A DNA stretch of 36,435 nt from Candidatus Omnitrophota bacterium (GTDB taxonomy: Bacteria > Omnitrophota > Gorgyraeia > JABMRJ01). A program made the translations under genes and the position numbers. The notes under the pieces were generated by a model. The model did no database searches. It was not told the DNA's origin and saw only the letters and a list, made by a program, of their open reading frames with translations. This document shows positions 13,166-22,755 of this stretch, piece by piece (the first letter of the stretch is position 1; each line of letters starts with the position of its first letter). Location of the stretch: assembly GCA_013202745.1 (NCBI GenBank), contig JABMRJ010000115.1:1-36435 (forward strand). Reading direction: 5' to 3'.

Positions 13166-13736
13166 AATAACCGAGGAAATCGTCAGGTTTGCTTTCGAGG
13201 TCTACATAGGCAGATTCGCAAAAAAATGGTCGATACTTTTTACAAACCCAACAGCCGGACCATGGAAAAAGATTGTACTTAACACAGGAGAGACGTCTAT
13301 GGAAATTGGGCGCTACAAGCGAGAAGAAAAAAGACCAGATTTAATTTTATTCCTTAAGGACCCTGCTATCTGCATAGTTGTCGAAGCTAAGGATGCTTTC
13401 AATAAAATTAACAATGAGGACCAGATTGAAAAAAGTTTTTCGGTCTTCAAAAAAGAGAGGAAGAGAATCCAGGAGCATTCAGCGTTTAATACTTTTATTA
13501 ATAAAGATATACATTTTATAAACTCATACTTATGGTATGACACCACTGCAAAGAATATTGACACTCTTAAGAACAGCTATTTTAGGCAGCATGTAAATGA
13601 GGGCCACCTGCTCTGCATAGTAGGTACAAAAAAAGATGGTAATCTGTGTTTTAAAGGAGAGCTGGTGGCAAAGAATGAAGCATTACTCAATAAAAAAGTT
13701 GCGAAGGCTATAGAAGAGCTTTTTCAAACAAGCTAG
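13143..13736 (+). CDS. Putative PD-(D/E)XK nuclease (small subunit)
   Basis: RPDLILFLKDPAICIVVEAKD matches PD-x(n)-ExK. Confidence 0.7.
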   Translation: MEKKIPYKITEEIVRFAFEVYIGRFAKKWSILFTNPTAGPWKKIVLNTGETSMEIGRYKREEKRPDLILFLKDPAICIVVEAKDAFNKINNEDQIEKSFSVFKKERKRIQEHSAFNTFINKDIHFINSYLWYDTTAKNIDTLKNSYFRQHVNEGHLLCIVGTKKDGNLCFKGELVAKNEALLNKKVAKAIEELFQTS

Positions 13737-15621
13737 GTAAGTACTGGCTCTTAAGCGTGTAGCTCTTTCCCTTTTTAGTGCAGAAATCCGGAAGAAGAGA
13801 AGTAATCTCTGTGACCCCTGGGGCTTCTTCAAAAGAATATTTCAATAGAATTTTCTGGACAATCTCCCACTCCTCCATGATTCCATCTGAGAGAACTTCA
13901 ATTATATCTTTTCTGATGATATCCTGTAACGTTTTCTTATCCCCTTCCCCAGGGACATAAGCCTTATATTGTATTGACGGAGATGCTCCATTAGAAAAAG
14001 AGTTGCTAATATACTGCTCTGCTAGTCTTATTGTATCAGCAGAATATTTATTTTTCAAAATTAGTCCTATAACTACTCGTACTACATGAGGTTTGAAGAA
14101 AATACCTTTTCGAGAGGCAGATAGCTTCTGAAATACTGCGTTAAAGAGCTTTTCTAGCTGCTGATAAGATATAACACACCTCTTAGCCTTGTTTGCTTTA
14201 CTGAATGTGATATAGAAATCTCCTATATAGCTCCCTCTTTCTGAGAATCTTGCTTTGGCGGGTATAACAGCTGGCAAAGCCATGGAAATGTCATCAAAAT
14301 CCAGATTCGCCTGTTCCGACGCTAGCAAGAGAGAGTGCCAAGCATCTAGCGTTAATTGATTAAATGTAAAAGTAATGTGTCCTTTAGTCGATAAGGATAA
14401 AGATAGTTTTAATACGGCGTCTGCCAGTTCTATCCTATATCTGCCCCATTTCTTGTTCCTGCTTATACTATCAGACACAACTATTTCGCTTTCATACTCA
14501 GGCTCTTCTTTTAGCCAGGTATTCCATAGTGCTGAGAACTCTAAATAAGGTACACTGTCCCCATAGGCAGGATCTGCAAATATATACCCTATCTTCTTTT
14601 TTGAAAACTTTGAGACCGCTTTCTGGATTGGCATATTATAAAATACGCTTTTTGCGTCTTTGCGAATATTGTATTTTAAATTATACAGCCCCTTAATAAT
14701 TTTTCTAAATCTAATATTGAAATTTAGAAGCGGGTTTGACTCTAAATGCATAGCCGGAATCCAAAATCCAGGGACAGACCATGCTGGCCCACCAGTACTT
14801 AATTCATTACGAAAAGGAATGAGCCTACTACACTGAGTCGCTGTAGAGGTTAGGCATAAAAGAAAAATATTCTTTATGCTCCTATCCGTGATTTTGTGGA
14901 TTTCGTCTGCTAAATATGAAAGCGCACTAAAGGCGCGAGGGGTATAAAATTTACTGGTAGTTGTGCCAGCATAACACAGAATACGCTTGTTCTCTATAAG
15001 CTCTCTATTATAGAAATGCGAATCTGTGCCAAGCTCATTATCTACGTTTTTATTTGCCAGGAAGGTTTGATTTTCAATAATTTTTTTATCTTTTATGGGG
15101 TGCTTGCATTCAACGGTATTTACGCTCACTACATAAGAGCTCTCGATGGTCTGTAGGTTAGAATTTACATTACTATGGCACGAGTTACATATATATTTTT
15201 TACCTACTTTTTTTGAATCTGAAATCCTAAATAATTGATTACAGCTAGAGCACCTTAATGCCAGCTGATGCACACAGTAACGTACTTTTCCATGCTCGCA
15301 GTTGTAATAGCGACTAAGTTTTTTTTCCACATTGTGAATAAAATCCTTATAGAAATCTTCAACCTTGGCAAAAGACACATTTGTTGTCGATACTTTACCT
15401 ATAAGAATCGCTAAAGGGTTTATATCCACCCCTATACTACTAATCCCTAATTTTGTTGCCTCTATGTTGGTGACACAGCTACCGCAGAATGGGTCTAGTA
15501 CTAGCATATTGGGAAGGTTATACTTTTTTATAAACTCTGACACTATATTATGCGGCTTCCGCGCCCAATATTTGTGTATAAGATATTCTGGTGAATGTGT
15601 CTTAGCGATATATACCTTCAT
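13708..15621 (-). CDS. DNA methyltransferase (N4/N6 type) with internal zinc-ribbon-like segment
   Basis: HKYWARKPHNIVSEF, DPFCGSC (motif I), FADPAYGDSVPYLEFSALWNTWL (motif IV variant), CSSC...CNSC. Confidence 0.85.
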   Translation of the reverse strand: MKVYIAKTHSPEYLIHKYWARKPHNIVSEFIKKYNLPNMLVLDPFCGSCVTNIEATKLGISSIGVDINPLAILIGKVSTTNVSFAKVEDFYKDFIHNVEKKLSRYYNCEHGKVRYCVHQLALRCSSCNQLFRISDSKKVGKKYICNSCHSNVNSNLQTIESSYVVSVNTVECKHPIKDKKIIENQTFLANKNVDNELGTDSHFYNRELIENKRILCYAGTTTSKFYTPRAFSALSYLADEIHKITDRSIKNIFLLCLTSTATQCSRLIPFRNELSTGGPAWSVPGFWIPAMHLESNPLLNFNIRFRKIIKGLYNLKYNIRKDAKSVFYNMPIQKAVSKFSKKKIGYIFADPAYGDSVPYLEFSALWNTWLKEEPEYESEIVVSDSISRNKKWGRYRIELADAVLKLSLSLSTKGHITFTFNQLTLDAWHSLLLASEQANLDFDDISMALPAVIPAKARFSERGSYIGDFYITFSKANKAKRCVISYQQLEKLFNAVFQKLSASRKGIFFKPHVVRVVIGLILKNKYSADTIRLAEQYISNSFSNGASPSIQYKAYVPGEGDKKTLQDIIRKDIIEVLSDGIMEEWEIVQKILLKYSFEEAPGVTEITSLLPDFCTKKGKSYTLKSQYLPSLFEKALL

Positions 15622-16844
15622 ATGGATTTCCTAAAGACAAGGATGAAATCTGAAATGTTAATGCCCACCTTGCTTCCCGTGCGCCTTTGGCTGGCCACCC
15701 ACGATGCCTCTGTGAACTTAGGCCTTCTAATTGCAATAGAAATCAGGGTTAGCTCGCAATCCGCAATAGAATCGAGTAATAGCTTCGTAGTCCTTATATA
15801 CTCCCCTCTGATACGGGTATCCCCTATCATAAGAGCAAAAAACGTGTTCTTTTTCATCTGCTGCGATATGTTTTTAATCCCAGCAGCCATATCTTCTACA
15901 TACCTATGAACATTTTCTTTTTTTCCGACTTTAAAAAATTCTCTCAATTCCTGCTGCCTAATGCTTTTTTTATCACACATAAGCCATGGTAGCTCTAGAG
16001 AAAAAATCGAACTAAACTTATAGACGTTAAAATATGGTGGGTGGCATATAATTAATTTAGGCTTGCCGCTCTTTAACTTCAACTGTCTTATATCTTGCAT
16101 GATAAACTTTGGTGGCTCAAAATCTTCGGGCAATGTTTCAATAGATTTTATTATTTTTTCTGCTGTCTTATTGAATAAGTCTATCGGTTCTTTTATGGCA
16201 GAATCAACGTCAAGAAAAAGACGGCCTTGTAGCGAGGTAGCCTTCGATGTCTTTCTGATAATGTTTATAAGAATACATAAATAGGTCTCTCGTACATCTT
16301 CATCCTGCAGTGAGTGTATGGCGTTCAATAATTTTAAAAGATTTTTATACGTCTCCGGTAGAAACCAGTGTTTAATTTTTGAATCCTCTAGCGGTACCCT
16401 GGTAATATCGTATATATGCCTTGATTTGTTATTGTATTTTTTATTTACCTCCCTTAGAGCATCTATTAACACCTTGTCTTTAATATAGCGGCATTTTACG
16501 TTCACTAGAAGCTGGCTAATCGGACTTACGTCTGCACAAATAATTTGTCGCTTCATAAGGAGCGCTTCCACAGCAGATGTTCCGCTCCCGCACATAGGGT
16601 CCAAAATTAAGTCGTTGTTATCAGTATAGCGCTCGATTAGGTATCTTGCTATTGGCGGAGGGAATTTCCCATAGAATCGAAAGATTGAATGAGTTTTATA
16701 AGCTAATTTTTTTGAAGAAAAAGGAATATCCCATACCTCAGACATGTCTTCAAATTCACATAGCCCAGCCTCCTTAAGTAAGAGCTTTTTATATTTAAGG
16801 CTCTCGGGGCTCTTTTCTATTACAATATTAGGGTATTTTTCCAT
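15618..16844 (-). CDS. DNA methyltransferase (start probably MEKYPN, 16844)
   Basis: FRFYGKFPPPIARYLI, DPMCGSGTSAVEAL (motif I), CHPPYFNVYKFSS (motif IV); ATGA overlap with the 637-aa gene. Confidence 0.85.
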   Translation of the reverse strand: MEKYPNIVIEKSPESLKYKKLLLKEAGLCEFEDMSEVWDIPFSSKKLAYKTHSIFRFYGKFPPPIARYLIERYTDNNDLILDPMCGSGTSAVEALLMKRQIICADVSPISQLLVNVKCRYIKDKVLIDALREVNKKYNNKSRHIYDITRVPLEDSKIKHWFLPETYKNLLKLLNAIHSLQDEDVRETYLCILINIIRKTSKATSLQGRLFLDVDSAIKEPIDLFNKTAEKIIKSIETLPEDFEPPKFIMQDIRQLKLKSGKPKLIICHPPYFNVYKFSSIFSLELPWLMCDKKSIRQQELREFFKVGKKENVHRYVEDMAAGIKNISQQMKKNTFFALMIGDTRIRGEYIRTTKLLLDSIADCELTLISIAIRRPKFTEASWVASQRRTGSKVGINISDFILVFRKSI

Positions 16845-17063
16845 TACGCAATGTATTTTAGCAATGTAATGACAAAAGGTCAATAATATTATCTTATTAT
16901 ACTGGGACCTACATGGACTTCAGTGCCATCTCAATTTTATATTTTCCTATCTGGCTTTTCAAGGGTAGGCCTTCGTTGTAAAGCTCAGTAGCCTTCCTTA
17001 CTGATAGTCTTGTCCTTTTTATATCCATTAATTTATTAATATCGATTTTTTTCTTCGATCTTT

Positions 17064-17167
17064 GGGGGCGGTTCTCAGGGTGCCAGGTCTTACCTCAAGA
17101 AGTGGGGCCTTCGGACATATCCCCTATTTTCACATACTGCTAACCTGCCAAATCTAACCAGGTTAGA
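17064..17167. repeat. Composite intergenic repeat: A (17064-17124) + B (17137-17167)
   Basis: Sequence match to the copies at 851, 3174 and 8920. Confidence 0.9.
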
Positions 17168-17231
17168 TGCTTATTATATAGAATGTCTATGTAAGCGTGG
17201 ACAGGCAATTAAATCCTCATATTAAGGTTTT

Positions 17232-17293
17232 GGGGGACGGTCCTCATGGTGCCAGGTCTTACCTCAAGAAGTGGCTCCTTCAGACCAGTCCTC
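17232..17293. repeat. Solo module A, diverged 3' half
   Basis: GGGGGACGGTCCTCATGGTGCCAGGTCTTACCTCAAGAAGTGGCTCCTTCAGACCAGTCC. Confidence 0.8.
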
Positions 17294-17355
17294 TGGTTTC
17301 TTCTATTTCACTGGTTTTATGCTATTTTAGAGGAGGCTCTATATCTGAATTACAA

Positions 17356-18207
17356 TTATTGTGATGACGTGGTTATTAAATCTTTTTCTTCCTCTGAACT
17401 CTTGTTCTCATCAATTAATTTTTTGCCAATAGAGGTGAGTAAATGACTAAAATGTTTTGTGTTACTTGTATATAAATAAGTTTCTTGTGGACATTCTATT
17501 GAAAGTATTGCATCGCCACACTTCCAGCAATATTTTGAATCAAGCATATTCTCAGGATAGGCTAAAGCTTTTTCTATAATTTTTGCCATTTTAGTTAGTT
17601 CTGGTTCTTTTTTTTCATCAGGAATGCCTTTTAACTCTTTAAGAATATTTTCAAGCTCTGTTCTATGTTTTTTAAAAAATTCATCTATTTTACATTTCTT
17701 ATTAGGTTTTTTACAGGTTCCGAAAGGTTTATATGCATCGCCTTCTCTTTCTGGGGCATTACTGCCCTTATCGCAGCCGGTTTCATCTGTTAACCCATCA
17801 AGAGAATATTCAAACCATAGCCATGCCTCATCAATCGCATGTGGCAACCATAGTTGTAGCTTTTCTAGAGTATCTACATTGGCTCTATCAGTGACTCGTC
17901 CTTCCTTTTCCCAATAAAACGACGCTATGCATTGTAATACTCTGTTAACTTTCCGCTTTGCTTGAGGTGGTAATTTCGTAAGCCAATGTACTATTTCCCC
18001 AAAATTATTTAATCTTAATGTCAAGCTATATAAATAAATCATATCTCTTAAAAATGAATGCGTAAACTCCATTCTTGCAAATGTAGATGAAATCACCAAT
18101 CTATAATTTGCTATCACTTTATTTAATTCTTTTTTTAACTTATCCGGACCAAACCTTCGAAAAATTTGTATAGAAGTTTCTAAAAAAATGCGTTCTACCT
18201 TCATCAC
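17356..18207 (-). CDS. PIN-like domain protein with Cys-containing insert
   Basis: N-terminal ERIFLETSIQIF, STFARMEF, C-terminal GDAILSIECPQETYLYTSNTKHFSHL. Confidence 0.55.
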   Translation of the reverse strand: MMKVERIFLETSIQIFRRFGPDKLKKELNKVIANYRLVISSTFARMEFTHSFLRDMIYLYSLTLRLNNFGEIVHWLTKLPPQAKRKVNRVLQCIASFYWEKEGRVTDRANVDTLEKLQLWLPHAIDEAWLWFEYSLDGLTDETGCDKGSNAPEREGDAYKPFGTCKKPNKKCKIDEFFKKHRTELENILKELKGIPDEKKEPELTKMAKIIEKALAYPENMLDSKYCWKCGDAILSIECPQETYLYTSNTKHFSHLLTSIGKKLIDENKSSEEEKDLITTSSQ

Positions 18208-18827
18208 TACTTAGCACCTTTTGCTACTACAATATATTTATCGGCAGCGACATAAAATGGTCTAAAAATATCGAATCCTGATTCCTGTAATTTCTGTCTG
18301 CATTCTCTTGGATAGGTACTTGATATGTCCTGCATTTTTAAGCTAGAATACATTTCGCCTAAGCTATTTATTTTTTCTGCTGTTAGCTCTTTAACGTCAT
18401 AATATCTAATACAGCTTTCCACTAATACTAGTACTTCTGCATATGATTTTTCTCTTTTTTTCCTTAATTCCCATAGCTTCTTATGTTTTTCTATAATATT
18501 AGAAAAAAGCGTTTCTGTTTCAATCGGGTCAGTCAAAGATTCTTTTAAGTATTCTAGGAGCCCTTTAATTCTATCTACTATTTCAGAAATTCTATTATTA
18601 GCATCTTCTAAACTTTCCTTAAAAGAAACTGCAGTTCCTAAAATGTATGTCTCCAATTTTTCCTTTTGGTGTGTTGTCTTTTGTAAATCTGTTTCGTCTG
18701 CTAAATCACTTATGTCGATGTAACCTTCTGAGGTATTTAGTCTTGCAGTTTCATGAAATAAAGCTTCTTTTTGTTCCTCTACATCGATGCTTTTTCCCTT
18801 ATCTACAATTTTGGTATACCATTCCAT
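18207..18827 (-). CDS. Hypothetical coiled-coil protein
   Basis: Extended charged heptad-like region; abuts the PIN-like gene. Confidence 0.6.
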   Translation of the reverse strand: MEWYTKIVDKGKSIDVEEQKEALFHETARLNTSEGYIDISDLADETDLQKTTHQKEKLETYILGTAVSFKESLEDANNRISEIVDRIKGLLEYLKESLTDPIETETLFSNIIEKHKKLWELRKKREKSYAEVLVLVESCIRYYDVKELTAEKINSLGEMYSSLKMQDISSTYPRECRQKLQESGFDIFRPFYVAADKYIVVAKGAK

Positions 18828-18838
18828 TTTAGCTCCTT

Positions 18839-19534
18839 TTATTTAAATAGTTTTAGTAAATTGCTTTCAATCTTTTTATAGCTTCTCTGTATAAAATCAG
18901 AAGAAACAAAATCGCTTATTTTGTAAACTTTTGTTGTAAAAACATCTATATCAACTAAAATGGCGTGTTCGGGATTGAATTTTCTAAAAGCTTTATCCTT
19001 ACCTATTTCGACAACTTTTGGTCTGGATGCCGAGCCAATAGCAATCCTATAAGTTATGTCATCCTGTTCCAAAACAAGTGTAAAATCTTTATTTACTATC
19101 TTTTTTCCAAACGCTGACACTTTTTCTGGTTCTATTTGCAATATTCCACCTTTGTCTATTATTTTCTCGGCTATTTCAACAGAAGCACAGGGTAATAAAA
19201 ACCAATATCTATTTCCTATTCTTTCAAGCTCCTGAATTTTAAAATTATTAAACAGTATTTTAGTAATCTTATCCGAATTTATTTTAAACTGATTTAGGTT
19301 CTCAACGTTAATTTGTCGAATCCATACTCTATTCCAGTGATAGATGGCAATAATTTTGCGTTTCTCGTTGATCATCTGCATGCCTTTATCTCCTAAACTG
19401 TGCCACTTCCAATCAGGATTTTCTTTTTGTATATTAAGTATAGTTTCTCCGGACTTATCCCAATATAAATAGCCGCTATTGTAGTGTATTTCTAGAACGG
19501 CTTTACTCAATAAGAAATCGCTAAAGCTCGCCAT
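18839..19534 (-). CDS. Hypothetical protein, first gene of the PIN-like operon
   Basis: ORF track, protein-like composition; AVLEIHYNSGYLYWDKSGETILNI... AILVDIDVFT. Confidence 0.6.
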   Translation of the reverse strand: MASFSDFLLSKAVLEIHYNSGYLYWDKSGETILNIQKENPDWKWHSLGDKGMQMINEKRKIIAIYHWNRVWIRQINVENLNQFKINSDKITKILFNNFKIQELERIGNRYWFLLPCASVEIAEKIIDKGGILQIEPEKVSAFGKKIVNKDFTLVLEQDDITYRIAIGSASRPKVVEIGKDKAFRKFNPEHAILVDIDVFTTKVYKISDFVSSDFIQRSYKKIESNLLKLFK

Positions 19535-19743: not shown

Positions 19744-19802
19744 TCCTTCAGATGCTCCTTTTCGTCGCATCTTCAGGATCACTTTCTCCTTCGGAGAAAG
19801 TG
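19744..19802 (-). repeat. RNA-trailer repeat: imperfect hairpin with loop GACGAAAAGGA (19744-19778) plus perfect hairpin (19780-19802)
   Basis: GATGC-tccttttcgtc-GCATC; CACTTTCTCC-TTC-GGAGAAAGTG; parallels 22594-22670. Confidence 0.75.
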
Positions 19803-19819
19803 GTGGAGGTGCCGAGATT
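19801..19819 (-). repeat. Duplicate of the tmRNA 3' end (candidate distal att site)
   Basis: TGGTGGAGGTGCCGAGATT identical over 19 bp to 21644-21662. Confidence 0.9.
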
Positions 19820-19913
19820 TTGGTCGTTTCGTGCTCAAAATGGCCTTTTCACCACACTTCTCACCACATTTGTTAGATCTCATTTTATCCTATCTATGCC
19901 CTTATTTCAAGGG

Positions 19914-20705
19914 TCAGCGTATAATAAATTCCCTTAATCTACTGAATCTCTCAAAGATATCCTGTCTTAAATTATCGATATATTCATCCGCGCCATTTTC
20001 CCTTTCGACCATGAGGCATCCTGGGCTCGAAACTCTCCCAAAGAACTTATTGAGGTCATCAGAAATGTCTGCAAAATAGCCCTCGTTTCTGTATTGAGAG
20101 ATTTTCTTTAGAATCACATCAACATCTGGCGCGTATCGCAGGATGAAATACATGTAATATAAGTCTTTCGCCTGTTTCTCTTCGTTTTCTCTATTAATAA
20201 AAGTCGCCCCTTTGTGGTATAAAAAAGCTGAGGGTCTCGGACAGTTAACAGAATATGTTTGATTTTTCTTTTTAGTATACACATCTATTGGTATGCGATA
20301 TTTTAAAAGAAAATCAAATCTGTCAATTTTGTTAACTTGGATTTGCCTGCCGACTAACTGTTCTATAATGTGAATATCGGCACCTGGATAAGTGATAAAG
20401 TCGATGGGTACCTTCCCTTTATGCAATACAACAGGAAACATTCTATCCATTCGCGGGTGGTGCTCTTCATAATCCAAAGTAGAAAGTGTTTCAAAAATTG
20501 TTTTGGTGTAATCCCCTGTAATTAATTGATCCAGACCAAAATCTATATCAACTGTAGTAACCGGATTTTTAATGAAATTCTTCCAGAGAAAATTAGAATA
20601 GATGTACGGCATCCAACCGCCAACAAGGGTAAGATCGCACAGATAATCCTTGATATCTTCCAATACGTTAAAAAATATAGATTCAATCCTATTAGAATTA
20701 ATCAA
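19914..20705 (-). CDS. AbiEii-like nucleotidyltransferase (putative type IV toxin)
   Basis: TLVGGW...TTVDIDFGL nucleotidyltransferase signature; downstream of an AbiEi-like gene with 8-nt overlap. Confidence 0.7.
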   Translation of the reverse strand: MINSNRIESIFFNVLEDIKDYLCDLTLVGGWMPYIYSNFLWKNFIKNPVTTVDIDFGLDQLITGDYTKTIFETLSTLDYEEHHPRMDRMFPVVLHKGKVPIDFITYPGADIHIIEQLVGRQIQVNKIDRFDFLLKYRIPIDVYTKKKNQTYSVNCPRPSAFLYHKGATFINRENEEKQAKDLYYMYFILRYAPDVDVILKKISQYRNEGYFADISDDLNKFFGRVSSPGCLMVERENGADEYIDNLRQDIFERFSRLREFIIR

Positions 20706-21378
20706 GCCGGTTTCCCTTCTCTTCTAATAATTTTTTTAGGTATTCCGCATGTTCTCTTCCACGGGGCCGAAAATTGAAAAGATCCAGATAAAGCTGAAGG
20801 TTAGAAACAACTTTATATCCGTTTATCATCTGGCTATTAAAAAAAACACTTTTTTTGTAGTACGGACGGATGAAATGAATATTGCCGCCTCTCACAAGCT
20901 CCTTCAAATCAAACCTCTGGCGCATATCCAAGATATCCTTATTCCAGTTCTGAGACTCGAAATACATATATACATGGTCTGTCTTTACAAAAAAAGTCCT
21001 CAAATTAGCGCCTGTATGGAGAGTTAAAGCATACTGTCTATCTTTTAGATAATTCTTAAGTTTCGTCAGGATATTTTTATCAGGCGTATAATAGGTGTCG
21101 ACTTCGTTCAATTCAAAGCTATATCCCTTCTTCCAATTTTCTATAAGCCTTTTTGCATCAGTAAGAATCGTGTAACTGGCGGGTCCTCTTTTTATTCTTT
21201 CTATATATCCTAGTCTTGCCATTGCTTCAAGCACAGCCTGTGACATTCCTATGCTCACACCTCCGCGGCCGGTAAAACCACGTGTCACCCATTTTTTTTG
21301 GGGGTGGCATAACATCTCTCTTAAAATCAAAGTCGCTTTGTCTGCGAATATATTCTTCATCTTTTTATTGTTTTTCAC
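20698..21378 (-). CDS. AbiEi-like antitoxin / winged-helix regulator
   Basis: N-terminal wHTH-like segment, C-terminal SNLQLYLDLFNFRPRGREHAEYLKKLL; gene order as in AbiE; GTG start (or ATG 18 nt downstream). Confidence 0.7.
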   Translation of the reverse strand: MKNNKKMKNIFADKATLILREMLCHPQKKWVTRGFTGRGGVSIGMSQAVLEAMARLGYIERIKRGPASYTILTDAKRLIENWKKGYSFELNEVDTYYTPDKNILTKLKNYLKDRQYALTLHTGANLRTFFVKTDHVYMYFESQNWNKDILDMRQRFDLKELVRGGNIHFIRPYYKKSVFFNSQMINGYKVVSNLQLYLDLFNFRPRGREHAEYLKKLLEEKGNRLD

Positions 21379-21410
21379 TAAGTTTACCCTCCCTCATTTT
21401 TTTTTGCTAT

Positions 21411-21448
21411 TGTTCACCTATTAGTGAACAATATATACTAAGTGAACA
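21411..21448. promoter_or_regulatory. Candidate AbiEi operator
   Basis: TGTTCAC-ctatta-GTGAACA perfect inverted repeat plus additional AGTGAACA half-site at 21441-21448. Confidence 0.65.
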
Positions 21449-21596
21449 TTATTGTCAAGTTTTATTTTTTGCTCCATTTGCTGCCTCCTACGTATAATTG
21501 CTTAGTACTTATAAATAAGTATACATAATATATACGATTATGTTTGCAATTCTTTCCCTTTCTTATTATCTGCGCCCTTTTTCATCACATTTTCAC

Positions 21597-21630
21597 AAAA
21601 AAGGCGATTTCGTATTTGAAATCGCCTTTC
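21597..21630 (-). terminator. Intrinsic terminator downstream of ssrA
   Basis: AAGGCGATTTC-loop-GAAATCGCCTT, 11-bp perfect stem with T-run on minus strand. Confidence 0.85.
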
Positions 21631-21643
21631 TCTTATTATGATA

Positions 21644-22040
21644 TGGTGGAGGTGCCGAGATTCGAACTCGGGTCCCCGGAAGTCAACCAAAAGCTTCTAC
21701 ATGTTTATCCTACCATTTATTATCCTACGTCAGGCTCCGGCAGAAAGGATACTGACGTAATAGCCTCTTAAGCGTTCACCTATCGCCCAGAGACAAGGCG
21801 GTTAGGCTATCCTGCTTTATGTACTCGCTCTTAGCTTCCCAGGAAACTAGCTAAGGGAGTCGCCCCTGCTAAGCAGGGACTGTGTCCAACGCGCTGGTGC
21901 AGAGTATTTCTTCCGCCTCAGCAACGGCACTATATGTGTCGTTTGCGTTTGTATTGTGCCAGGTGTTTAAAGAGGCCTCCCGACAACCTCTACATGCCAC
22001 TCTTAGAATGAACTAGCCGGATCGAGAACCTTTCACCCCC
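21644..22040 (-). ncRNA. ssrA: tmRNA
   Basis: 5' GGGGGUGAAAGGUUCUCGAU, ...AAGAGUGGCAUGUAGAGGUUGUCGGGAGGCCUC, 3' GGGGACCCGAGUUCGAAUCUCGGCACCUCCACCA; acceptor stem pairs; adjacent to smpB. Confidence 0.95.
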
Positions 22041-22046
22041 GATCTA

Positions 22047-22505
22047 TTATCTATTCTTTCTAAACTCTGCTACTTTTCGGAGCTCGCGCCTGGCTTCTTT
22101 ATCTTTGACGGCGCGGCGTTTGTCATAGAGCTTTTTACCTTTTGCAAGGGCCAATTCCACCTTGCACATACCTTTCTTAAAATACATCTTGAGGGGAACG
22201 AGCGTAAAGCCCTTCTGCGATGTCTTGCCCATAAGGCGCATGATTTCACGCTTATGGACAAGTAGCCTACGTCTCCTCAATGGATCTAATTGAAATGCAG
22301 TCGTATGTTCGTAAGGGCTTATATGGCAATTATATAGGTAAAGTTCTTCTTTGTCTATCGTTGCGAAACTTTCCTTCAGGTTGACCCTGCCGGCCCTTAT
22401 AGACTTTACCTCAGGACCTTTAAGCTCAATGCCGGCCTCAAAGCTCTCTTCGATGTCATAATCGTACCTGGCCTTCCTATTAGTCGCAACCGCTCTGTCC
22501 TTCAT
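22047..22505 (-). CDS. smpB: SsrA-binding protein
   Basis: NRKARYDYDIEESFEAGIELKGPEVKSIRAGRVNL... KGKKLYDKR. Confidence 0.97.
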   Translation of the reverse strand: MKDRAVATNRKARYDYDIEESFEAGIELKGPEVKSIRAGRVNLKESFATIDKEELYLYNCHISPYEHTTAFQLDPLRRRRLLVHKREIMRLMGKTSQKGFTLVPLKMYFKKGMCKVELALAKGKKLYDKRRAVKDKEARRELRKVAEFRKNR

Positions 22506-22593: not shown

Positions 22594-22648
22594 TCCTGAA
22601 ACGCCTTCAATGCTCCTTTTCGTCGCATTGTTTAACGGCGTTTCAGGA
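22594..22648 (-). repeat. RNA-trailer hairpin repeat downstream of tRNA-Leu
   Basis: TCCTGAAACGCC ... CAATGC-loop-GCATTG ... GGCGTTTCAGGA nested inverted repeats, loop GACGAAAAGGA shared with 19756-19766. Confidence 0.75.
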
Positions 22649-22668
22649 TCAAATTTGCGGAGCAAATT

Positions 22669-22755
22669 TGGTGCGGGAGGGGGGAGTTGAACCCCCAAGG
22701 GTTTACACCCACAGCGTTCTGAGCGCTGCGCGTTTGCCAGTTGCGCCACTCCCGC
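22669..22755 (-). tRNA. tRNA-Leu (anticodon CAG), CCA encoded
   Basis: GCGGGAG acceptor, CAGCG-CTCAGAA-CGCTG anticodon arm, long variable arm, GGGGG-TTCAACT-CCCCC T arm, CTCCCGCACCA. Confidence 0.95.

Follow-up and report, generated by a model that had tools for sequence, protein, structure and literature searches.

Introduction

Integrase-less islands in ssrA and the tandem accretion of such elements have been described before (PMC3146451, PMC5704250). Cis-mobilizable elements (CIMEs) are formed by the decay of ICEs and IMEs and accrete in tandem (PMC5704250). In Dehalococcoides, islands that target ssrA (vcr-GI) rely on a serine recombinase, and the 15 of 31 that lack an integration module were suggested to be cis-mobilizable (PMC3146451). 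Integron cassettes and CALINs are short and tandem, each unit is closed by a recombination site, and some arrays are integrase-less (PMC11389934). Type IV toxin-antitoxin pairs of the AbiE and MenAT types are overlapping bicistrons, the regulator followed by a nucleotidyltransferase (PMC3985639, PMC10435456). The AbiE pair of Streptococcus is autorepressed and serves as the reference for motifs (PMC3985639), and AbiE of S. suis helps to retain an ICE in the chromosome (PMC11062541).

In this study, we analysed a 36,435-nucleotide stretch of Omnitrophota DNA (the window), in which an initial annotation had placed an AbiE-like islet at the 3' end of the tmRNA gene. We consider it probable, at roughly 85%, that the islet is an integrase-less site-specific element at ssrA which carries AbiE-type cargo, and that a clade of Omnitrophota tyrosine integrases acted on it in trans or was once encoded inside it and lost.

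Results

Duplication of the ssrA 3' end around a two-gene islet

The layout of the insertion site is given below, in the direction of ssrA transcription.

22047 to 22505, minus strand: smpB, the native neighbour upstream of ssrA (Pfam SmpB, E 1.3e-60)
21644 to 22040, minus strand: tmRNA gene (ssrA), the integration target (ARAGORN; Rfam RF00023, 142 bits)
21597 to 21629, minus strand: intrinsic terminator AAAGGCGATTTC-AAATAC-GAAATCGCCTTTTTT, supplied by the islet (fold z = -7.3)
19801 to 19819, minus strand: distal 19-bp copy of the ssrA 3' end (attR core), an exact repeat
19773 to 19803, minus strand: displaced native ssrA trailer, hairpin CTTTCTCCGAAGGAGAAAG plus TGATCCTGA, shared with 11 tRNA genes

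ARAGORN and Rfam agree in placing the tmRNA 3' end at 21644 on the minus strand. The 19-mer that forms this end, CCA included (TGGTGGAGGTGCCGAGATT; proximal copy at 21644-21662), occurs again without a mismatch at 19801-19819, and no third site was found in the window when up to three mismatches were allowed. Dinucleotide shuffles gave a mean of 0.01 chance occurrences, so the att-like duplication of the initial annotation is upheld and a chance repeat is ruled out. The repeat unit measures 1843 bp and the interval between the copies (19820-21643) 1824 bp, with a G+C content of 0.361 against 0.414 for the window. Only two credible genes, which overlap, lie in this interval, and neither an integrase nor an integrase remnant was found there. 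As the islet does not have the integrase gene of its own that marks tyrosine-integrase-type ssrA islands, it is non-autonomous. Matches to ssrA and smpB also lie near each other in further genomes of the class.

Beside the distal copy, five minus-strand genes at 13708-19534, two of them type II DNA methyltransferases, are also low in G+C (0.358). No third ssrA copy bracketing these restriction-modification genes was found with up to three mismatches, and the cluster is probably a defence island of other origin.

The islet terminator, a strong hairpin whose presence had been annotated, stands directly behind the tmRNA and is the apparent means by which transcription of the tmRNA is kept properly ended after insertion. 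Comparable hairpins follow the examined ssrA-core copies of Candidatus Aadella gelida (G103); in the islet and these copies, a terminator lies at the start of the cassette, with z values from -3.6 to -9.0. That every cassette opens with a terminator does not hold, since the feature is not general among the tRNA-Ser cassettes described below.

The hairpin plus TGATCCTGA behind the distal copy abuts the 3' ends of 11 tRNA genes in the source genome (Gly, Lys, Gln, Val twice, Leu, Cys, Ser twice and Pro twice). The pattern matched 24 times in this genome, some matches overlapping, compared with once for a reversed control; for the remaining matches, no tRNA 3' end was detected directly alongside. 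This trailer is present behind the distal ssrA copy and absent behind the tmRNA itself. The simplest reading is that the tmRNA once joined the trailer and that the islet inserted at the joint, which supports an empty ancestral ssrA site. The annotated separation of ssrA from its native trailer, originally recognised by comparison with one tRNA gene, thus extends to 11. Trailer copies in the window include 22643-22671 and 19773-19803, with further repeated segments (AAAAGGAGCATCTGAAGGACC...) after them, and the hairpin plus TGATCCTGA has the appearance of a dispersed repeat family associated with the 3' ends of tRNA genes.

An integrase-type recombination end at the outer boundary

The following features mark the two sides of the islet.

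19804 to 19868, minus strand: 65-bp right recombination end, composed of two TGTGGTG arms, the GGCCATTTTGAGCACGAAA spacer and the core, shared with integrase-linked ends
19862 to 19868 and 19850 to 19856, minus strand: the TGTGGTG arms within the 65-bp end
21581 to 21600, minus strand: degenerate left arm TTTTGTGAAAATGTGATGAA, two repeats 11 bp apart with 3 mismatches in total

Read outward toward the distal copy, the right end consists of TGTGGTGAGAAGTGTGGTGAAAAGGCCATTTTGAGCACGAAACGACCAAA and then the ssrA core, so that an arm-and-core integrase end is recognisable at the islet boundary. The same end, of fixed length, lies behind integrase genes at 13 other loci; in a clade of tyrosine integrases from Omnitrophota, it comes directly after the gene. 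Measured from the first arm repeat up to the acceptor stem, nearly all of these ends are 65 bp long, across genomes and targets. The arm sequence varies by lineage (TGTGGTG, GGTGGTGTTT, TTGGTGTTAAAA), as expected if the arms evolve with their integrase. This type of end is present three times on another contig of the source genome (G000:C4), and one further copy lies on a 1.9-kb contig labelled Vogelbacteria. With regard to a possible phage origin of the integrase clade, no relative was found among 50,697 phage records. The source assembly is fragmented (195 contigs, 4.6% contamination), but the arm and trailer features tie the islet and its contig to the source genome.

A sequence model of the end (R1) was trained exclusively on ends next to integrase genes in other genomes, with the source genome left out. 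R1 finds the islet end at 19805-19868 with 44.2 bits (E 3.7e-11 per genome). If a segmental duplication or rearrangement had merely copied the ssrA 3' end beside an ancestral AbiE pair, this integrase-type 65-bp end would be left unexplained, as would the displacement of the trailer and the low G+C content of the islet. Direct comparison extended to the same family and included no genome of the same genus, which leaves such a history some room; the integrase-type end disfavours it, and we regard it as very improbable.

The closest relative compared was one genome of the same family, BS750m-G22. One of its contigs (JADHWH010000002.1, G001:C30) begins within an integrase gene that terminates at 494; the clade end at 661-727 comes next and then a copy of the 3' end of ssrA. 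The assembly did not yield the tmRNA gene itself. With integrase, arm end and ssrA copy in this order, the clade appears to target ssrA, with the islet as the integrase-less counterpart. The only clade integrase found in the source genome (L006:5402-6489) is split into two frames, and intact copies are present in other genomes, for example on JAHJHP010000088.1. Since the resident gene is interrupted, the islet may now be fixed.

Several other observations concern these integrases and their targets. A conserved ORF (MKGYQFLQN..., L006:227-739 and L175:11256-11720, no Pfam match) lies just inside the left end of elements in two families and is a candidate directionality or replication factor. 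At G000:C161:4429-7628 (L064), four tyrosine-recombinase domains stand in a row, the final two of them in reading frames given as 618 aa, in an arrangement that resembles tandem-recombinase elements. At L062, L214 and L219 (genomes G029, G046 and G042), the tmRNA 3' end runs into another conserved sequence (CGCGACCAATTCGAACCTTTGT ... GGCAAGGGTTYGAA), which is also present behind an ssrA copy at 6089 of L186; it probably represents a second, unrelated family of elements that target ssrA.

On the left side, the islet has kept the core intact and a degenerate arm, 43 bp from the tmRNA end; none of 300 shuffles gave a pair as good. In complete elements, the left repeats are likewise 11 bp apart and lie 143-144 bp behind the tRNA. 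Given its degenerate sequence and unusual distance, excision of the islet may no longer work. The state of this arm bears on whether the islet is a fossil, that is, an element that entered ssrA with an integrase, was later stripped of this gene and of most of its left arm by an internal deletion, and is now immobile and kept by its addiction module. The integrase-bearing relative at ssrA and the broken resident integrase fit this history as well, and CIMEs are generally held to arise by such decay (PMC5704250). The right end, on the other hand, is intact at the conserved 65-bp length. We consider decay a serious possibility, somewhat short of an even chance, against which the distribution of integrase-less ends in other genomes also speaks.

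Recurrent cassettes that end in the same site

R1 was searched against 386 genomes of the class and matched at E <= 0.01 in 42. Among the 33 strong matches (E up to 1.3e-5 per genome), an integrase gene lies immediately upstream of 12 and none is nearby for 21, where none nearby means none within 1.6 kb, a distance beyond which an integrase in the element would be missed and which exceeds the contig upstream of a few ends. Most of the 12 integrase-linked ends and none of the 21 others were among the training sequences. In all cases with two visible boundaries, the units closed by integrase-less ends are short cassettes. Their cargo includes BrnT/BrnA with a DUF481 gene, Fic (two genomes), a zeta-type toxin with a small partner, NTP_transf_8 pairs (three genomes), a DUF4143 ATPase and an SLFN_AlbA protein. 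No convincing integrase remnants were found inside them. Decay would have to account for 21 integrase-less ends that recur in many genomes, with a few compact genes each and free of such remnants. The islet is no lone relic; it is a member of a recurrent class of short integrase-less cassettes with a shared end.

Tandem arrangements of cassettes at tRNA-Ser or ssrA are common. On G000:C4, an integrase element at tRNA-Ser(gga) is followed by a cassette with DUF481 and BrnT/BrnA and then by one with an NTP_transf_8 pair; each unit is closed by the clade end, and the integrase of the array is broken. The same tRNA gene in G067, a single-contig genome, is followed by four tandem ends in 4.7 kb without an integrase. 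In Candidatus Aadella gelida, at least three contigs carry the clade end fused to the genome's own ssrA 3' sequence and the contig with the tmRNA breaks 3 bp behind the gene; cassettes are probably stacked at ssrA in this genome.

A comparison of related genomes, as the initial annotation had proposed, could be made at tRNA-Ser in G042 and G067, which belong to one genus other than that of the window. Their tRNA-Ser(gga) genes are 96% identical and the downstream flanks 93%, and they share an NTP_transf_8 cassette (88.6% identical over 1.25 kb). It lies directly after the tRNA in G042 and is the third of four in G067, where about 4.3 kb of other cassette DNA stands exactly at the tRNA 3' end ahead of it. 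Whole cassettes therefore come and go at this site, a rearrangement between congeners that also weighs against simple decay.

It is also conceivable that a single right end suffices for an integrase acting in trans and that cassettes are stacked behind tRNA-Ser and ssrA much as in CALINs. The TGTGGTG-type left arm that complete elements have was not detected in three tRNA-Ser cassettes (C4 cas2, C4 cas3 and the Fic cassette of G001), nor in three ssrA-core copies of G103 tested in the same way as the islet. Tandem arrays of three to four units, varied cargo on one type of end and the shuffling of whole cassettes would agree with such an integron-like process. The window islet, in contrast, shows an arm-like left pair that no shuffle equalled, left arms of another sequence are possible in the cassettes, and serial accretion with decay can give the same array pattern. 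We therefore regard a right-end-only mechanism as doubtful.

The AbiE-like cargo

The genes and predicted control region of the islet are as follows.

21442 to 21447, 21424 to 21429 and 21412 to 21417, minus strand: three GTTCAC/GTGAAC half-sites overlapping the promoter
21430 to 21458, minus strand: predicted promoter TTGACA-17-TATATT
20698 to 21378, minus strand: AbiEi-like predicted antitoxin and autorepressor, 226 aa, GTG start (Pfam PF09952 AbiEi_2)
19914 to 20705, minus strand: AbiEii/MenT-like predicted nucleotidyltransferase toxin, 263 aa, TTG start (Pfam PF12281 NTP_transf_8)

The first protein matches AbiEi_2 above the gathering score (34.5 bits against a cut-off of 21, E 3.1e-8) and the second NTP_transf_8 (40.2 bits against 26.3, E 4.8e-10). 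The match of the toxin to AbiEii (PF08843) stays under the cut-off, at 14.9 bits against 22.5. As the toxin falls in NTP_transf_8, the name AbiE-like is right and AbiE is not proven; with this wording, the annotation of an AbiEi/AbiEii-like pair as the only content between the copies is correct. The genes have the order of type IV AbiE systems, abiEi and then the nucleotidyltransferase, with an 8-bp overlap. The toxin carries the nucleotidyltransferase GG...DID motif (D53/D55) together with the conserved residues K165, R172 and D181. The islet pair shares with AbiE and MenAT the AbiEi_2 domain, the GG...DhD motif, the K, R and D residues and the promoter repeats; it differs in that the toxin scores in NTP_transf_8 and not in AbiEii and in the GG-to-DhD spacing, 23 residues compared with 15. 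The half-sites at 21412-21458 are a probable AbiEi operator, and gene order, overlap, promoter and motif residues fit an autorepressed AbiE-like pair, for which the domains suggest a toxin-antitoxin function. Sequence searches of the PDB gave no match, NCBIfam holds no family for the pair, and the predicted structures of both proteins were too poor to use (mean pLDDT 35.3 and 37.5).

Discussion

The initial annotation read the islet as a minimal or decayed ssrA element without an integrase, carrying an addiction module. Three lines of evidence support an integrase-less element at ssrA: the recombination end of the integrase clade, the integrase at an ssrA copy in BS750m-G22, and the trailer behind the distal copy. 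Because its outer end is the site used by this Omnitrophota integrase family, the islet looks like one of the recurrent small passenger cassettes moved by integrases encoded elsewhere.

We propose that a tyrosine integrase of the clade, provided in trans from a related element or formerly encoded inside and lost, would have recombined a circular form of the islet in the 3' core of ssrA. This would have regenerated the tmRNA 3' end on one side and left the displaced 3' end with the native trailer on the other. The islet brings a tmRNA terminator of its own and the AbiE-type pair as cargo; its right end is complete, with both arm sites and the core, and its left arm is degenerate. Judged by its domains and promoter, the pair is probably an autoregulated type IV toxin-antitoxin system, in which AbiEi would repress the promoter and counteract the nucleotidyltransferase toxin. 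Such a pair would stabilise the cassette and may possibly act in phage defence. MenT3, an enzyme that belongs to the related DUF1814 family, modifies the acceptor ends of tRNAs and prefers tRNA-Ser (PMC10435456); that cassettes with such nucleotidyltransferases lie in tRNA-Ser and tmRNA genes invites speculation and may be coincidence.

Among the known systems, CIMEs share several features with the islet. Both lack integration and transfer genes and are flanked by att sites; in the islet, the right end and the left core are intact and the left arm is degenerate. As with CIMEs, related units in the source genome form a tandem stack that includes an integrase-bearing element and lies at the 3' end of a tRNA gene. 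Unlike CIMEs, the cassettes measure only about 1-3 kb and carry one or two gene modules. Genes of ICEs or for conjugation were not seen in them, several do not have the usual left arm, and the class recurs across the phylum. A derivation by deletion, as for CIMEs, would have left only two genes and no integrase remnant in the islet. The islet is CIME-like and was probably inserted in trans. The Dehalococcoides vcr-GI islands share the ssrA target and are also tandem (PMC3146451). They differ from the islet in their serine recombinase (DsiB, as opposed to the tyrosine integrase of the Omnitrophota clade), in their larger size, in cargo rich in reductive dehalogenases and in the motif that adjoins the repeat. 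Compared with integrons, the Omnitrophota site is an arm-plus-core end anchored at a tRNA or tmRNA 3' end. The islet end matched such an end; no attC or integron integrase was identified, and no attC model was run. Cargo rich in toxin-antitoxin genes is also known from integron cassettes.

No report of this integrase clade, its end or its cassettes was found in the open-access literature searched; most subscription papers were outside the scope of the search. We suggest, tentatively, that Omnitrophota may possess an integron-like cassette economy, in which short cassettes with a single recombination end of about 65 bp, rich in toxin-antitoxin and Fic genes, are inserted, stacked and reshuffled in trans at the 3' ends of tRNA-Ser and ssrA by a clade of tyrosine integrases that separate elements encode.

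The right end defines where to look for such elements, and the 21 integrase-less copies are now open to tests of trans-mobilisation, for which the integrase and its end provide a compact pair suited to assay. These results point to a route by which toxin-antitoxin pairs spread through an uncultured phylum, in cassettes of a single module that carry no genes of phages or for conjugation.
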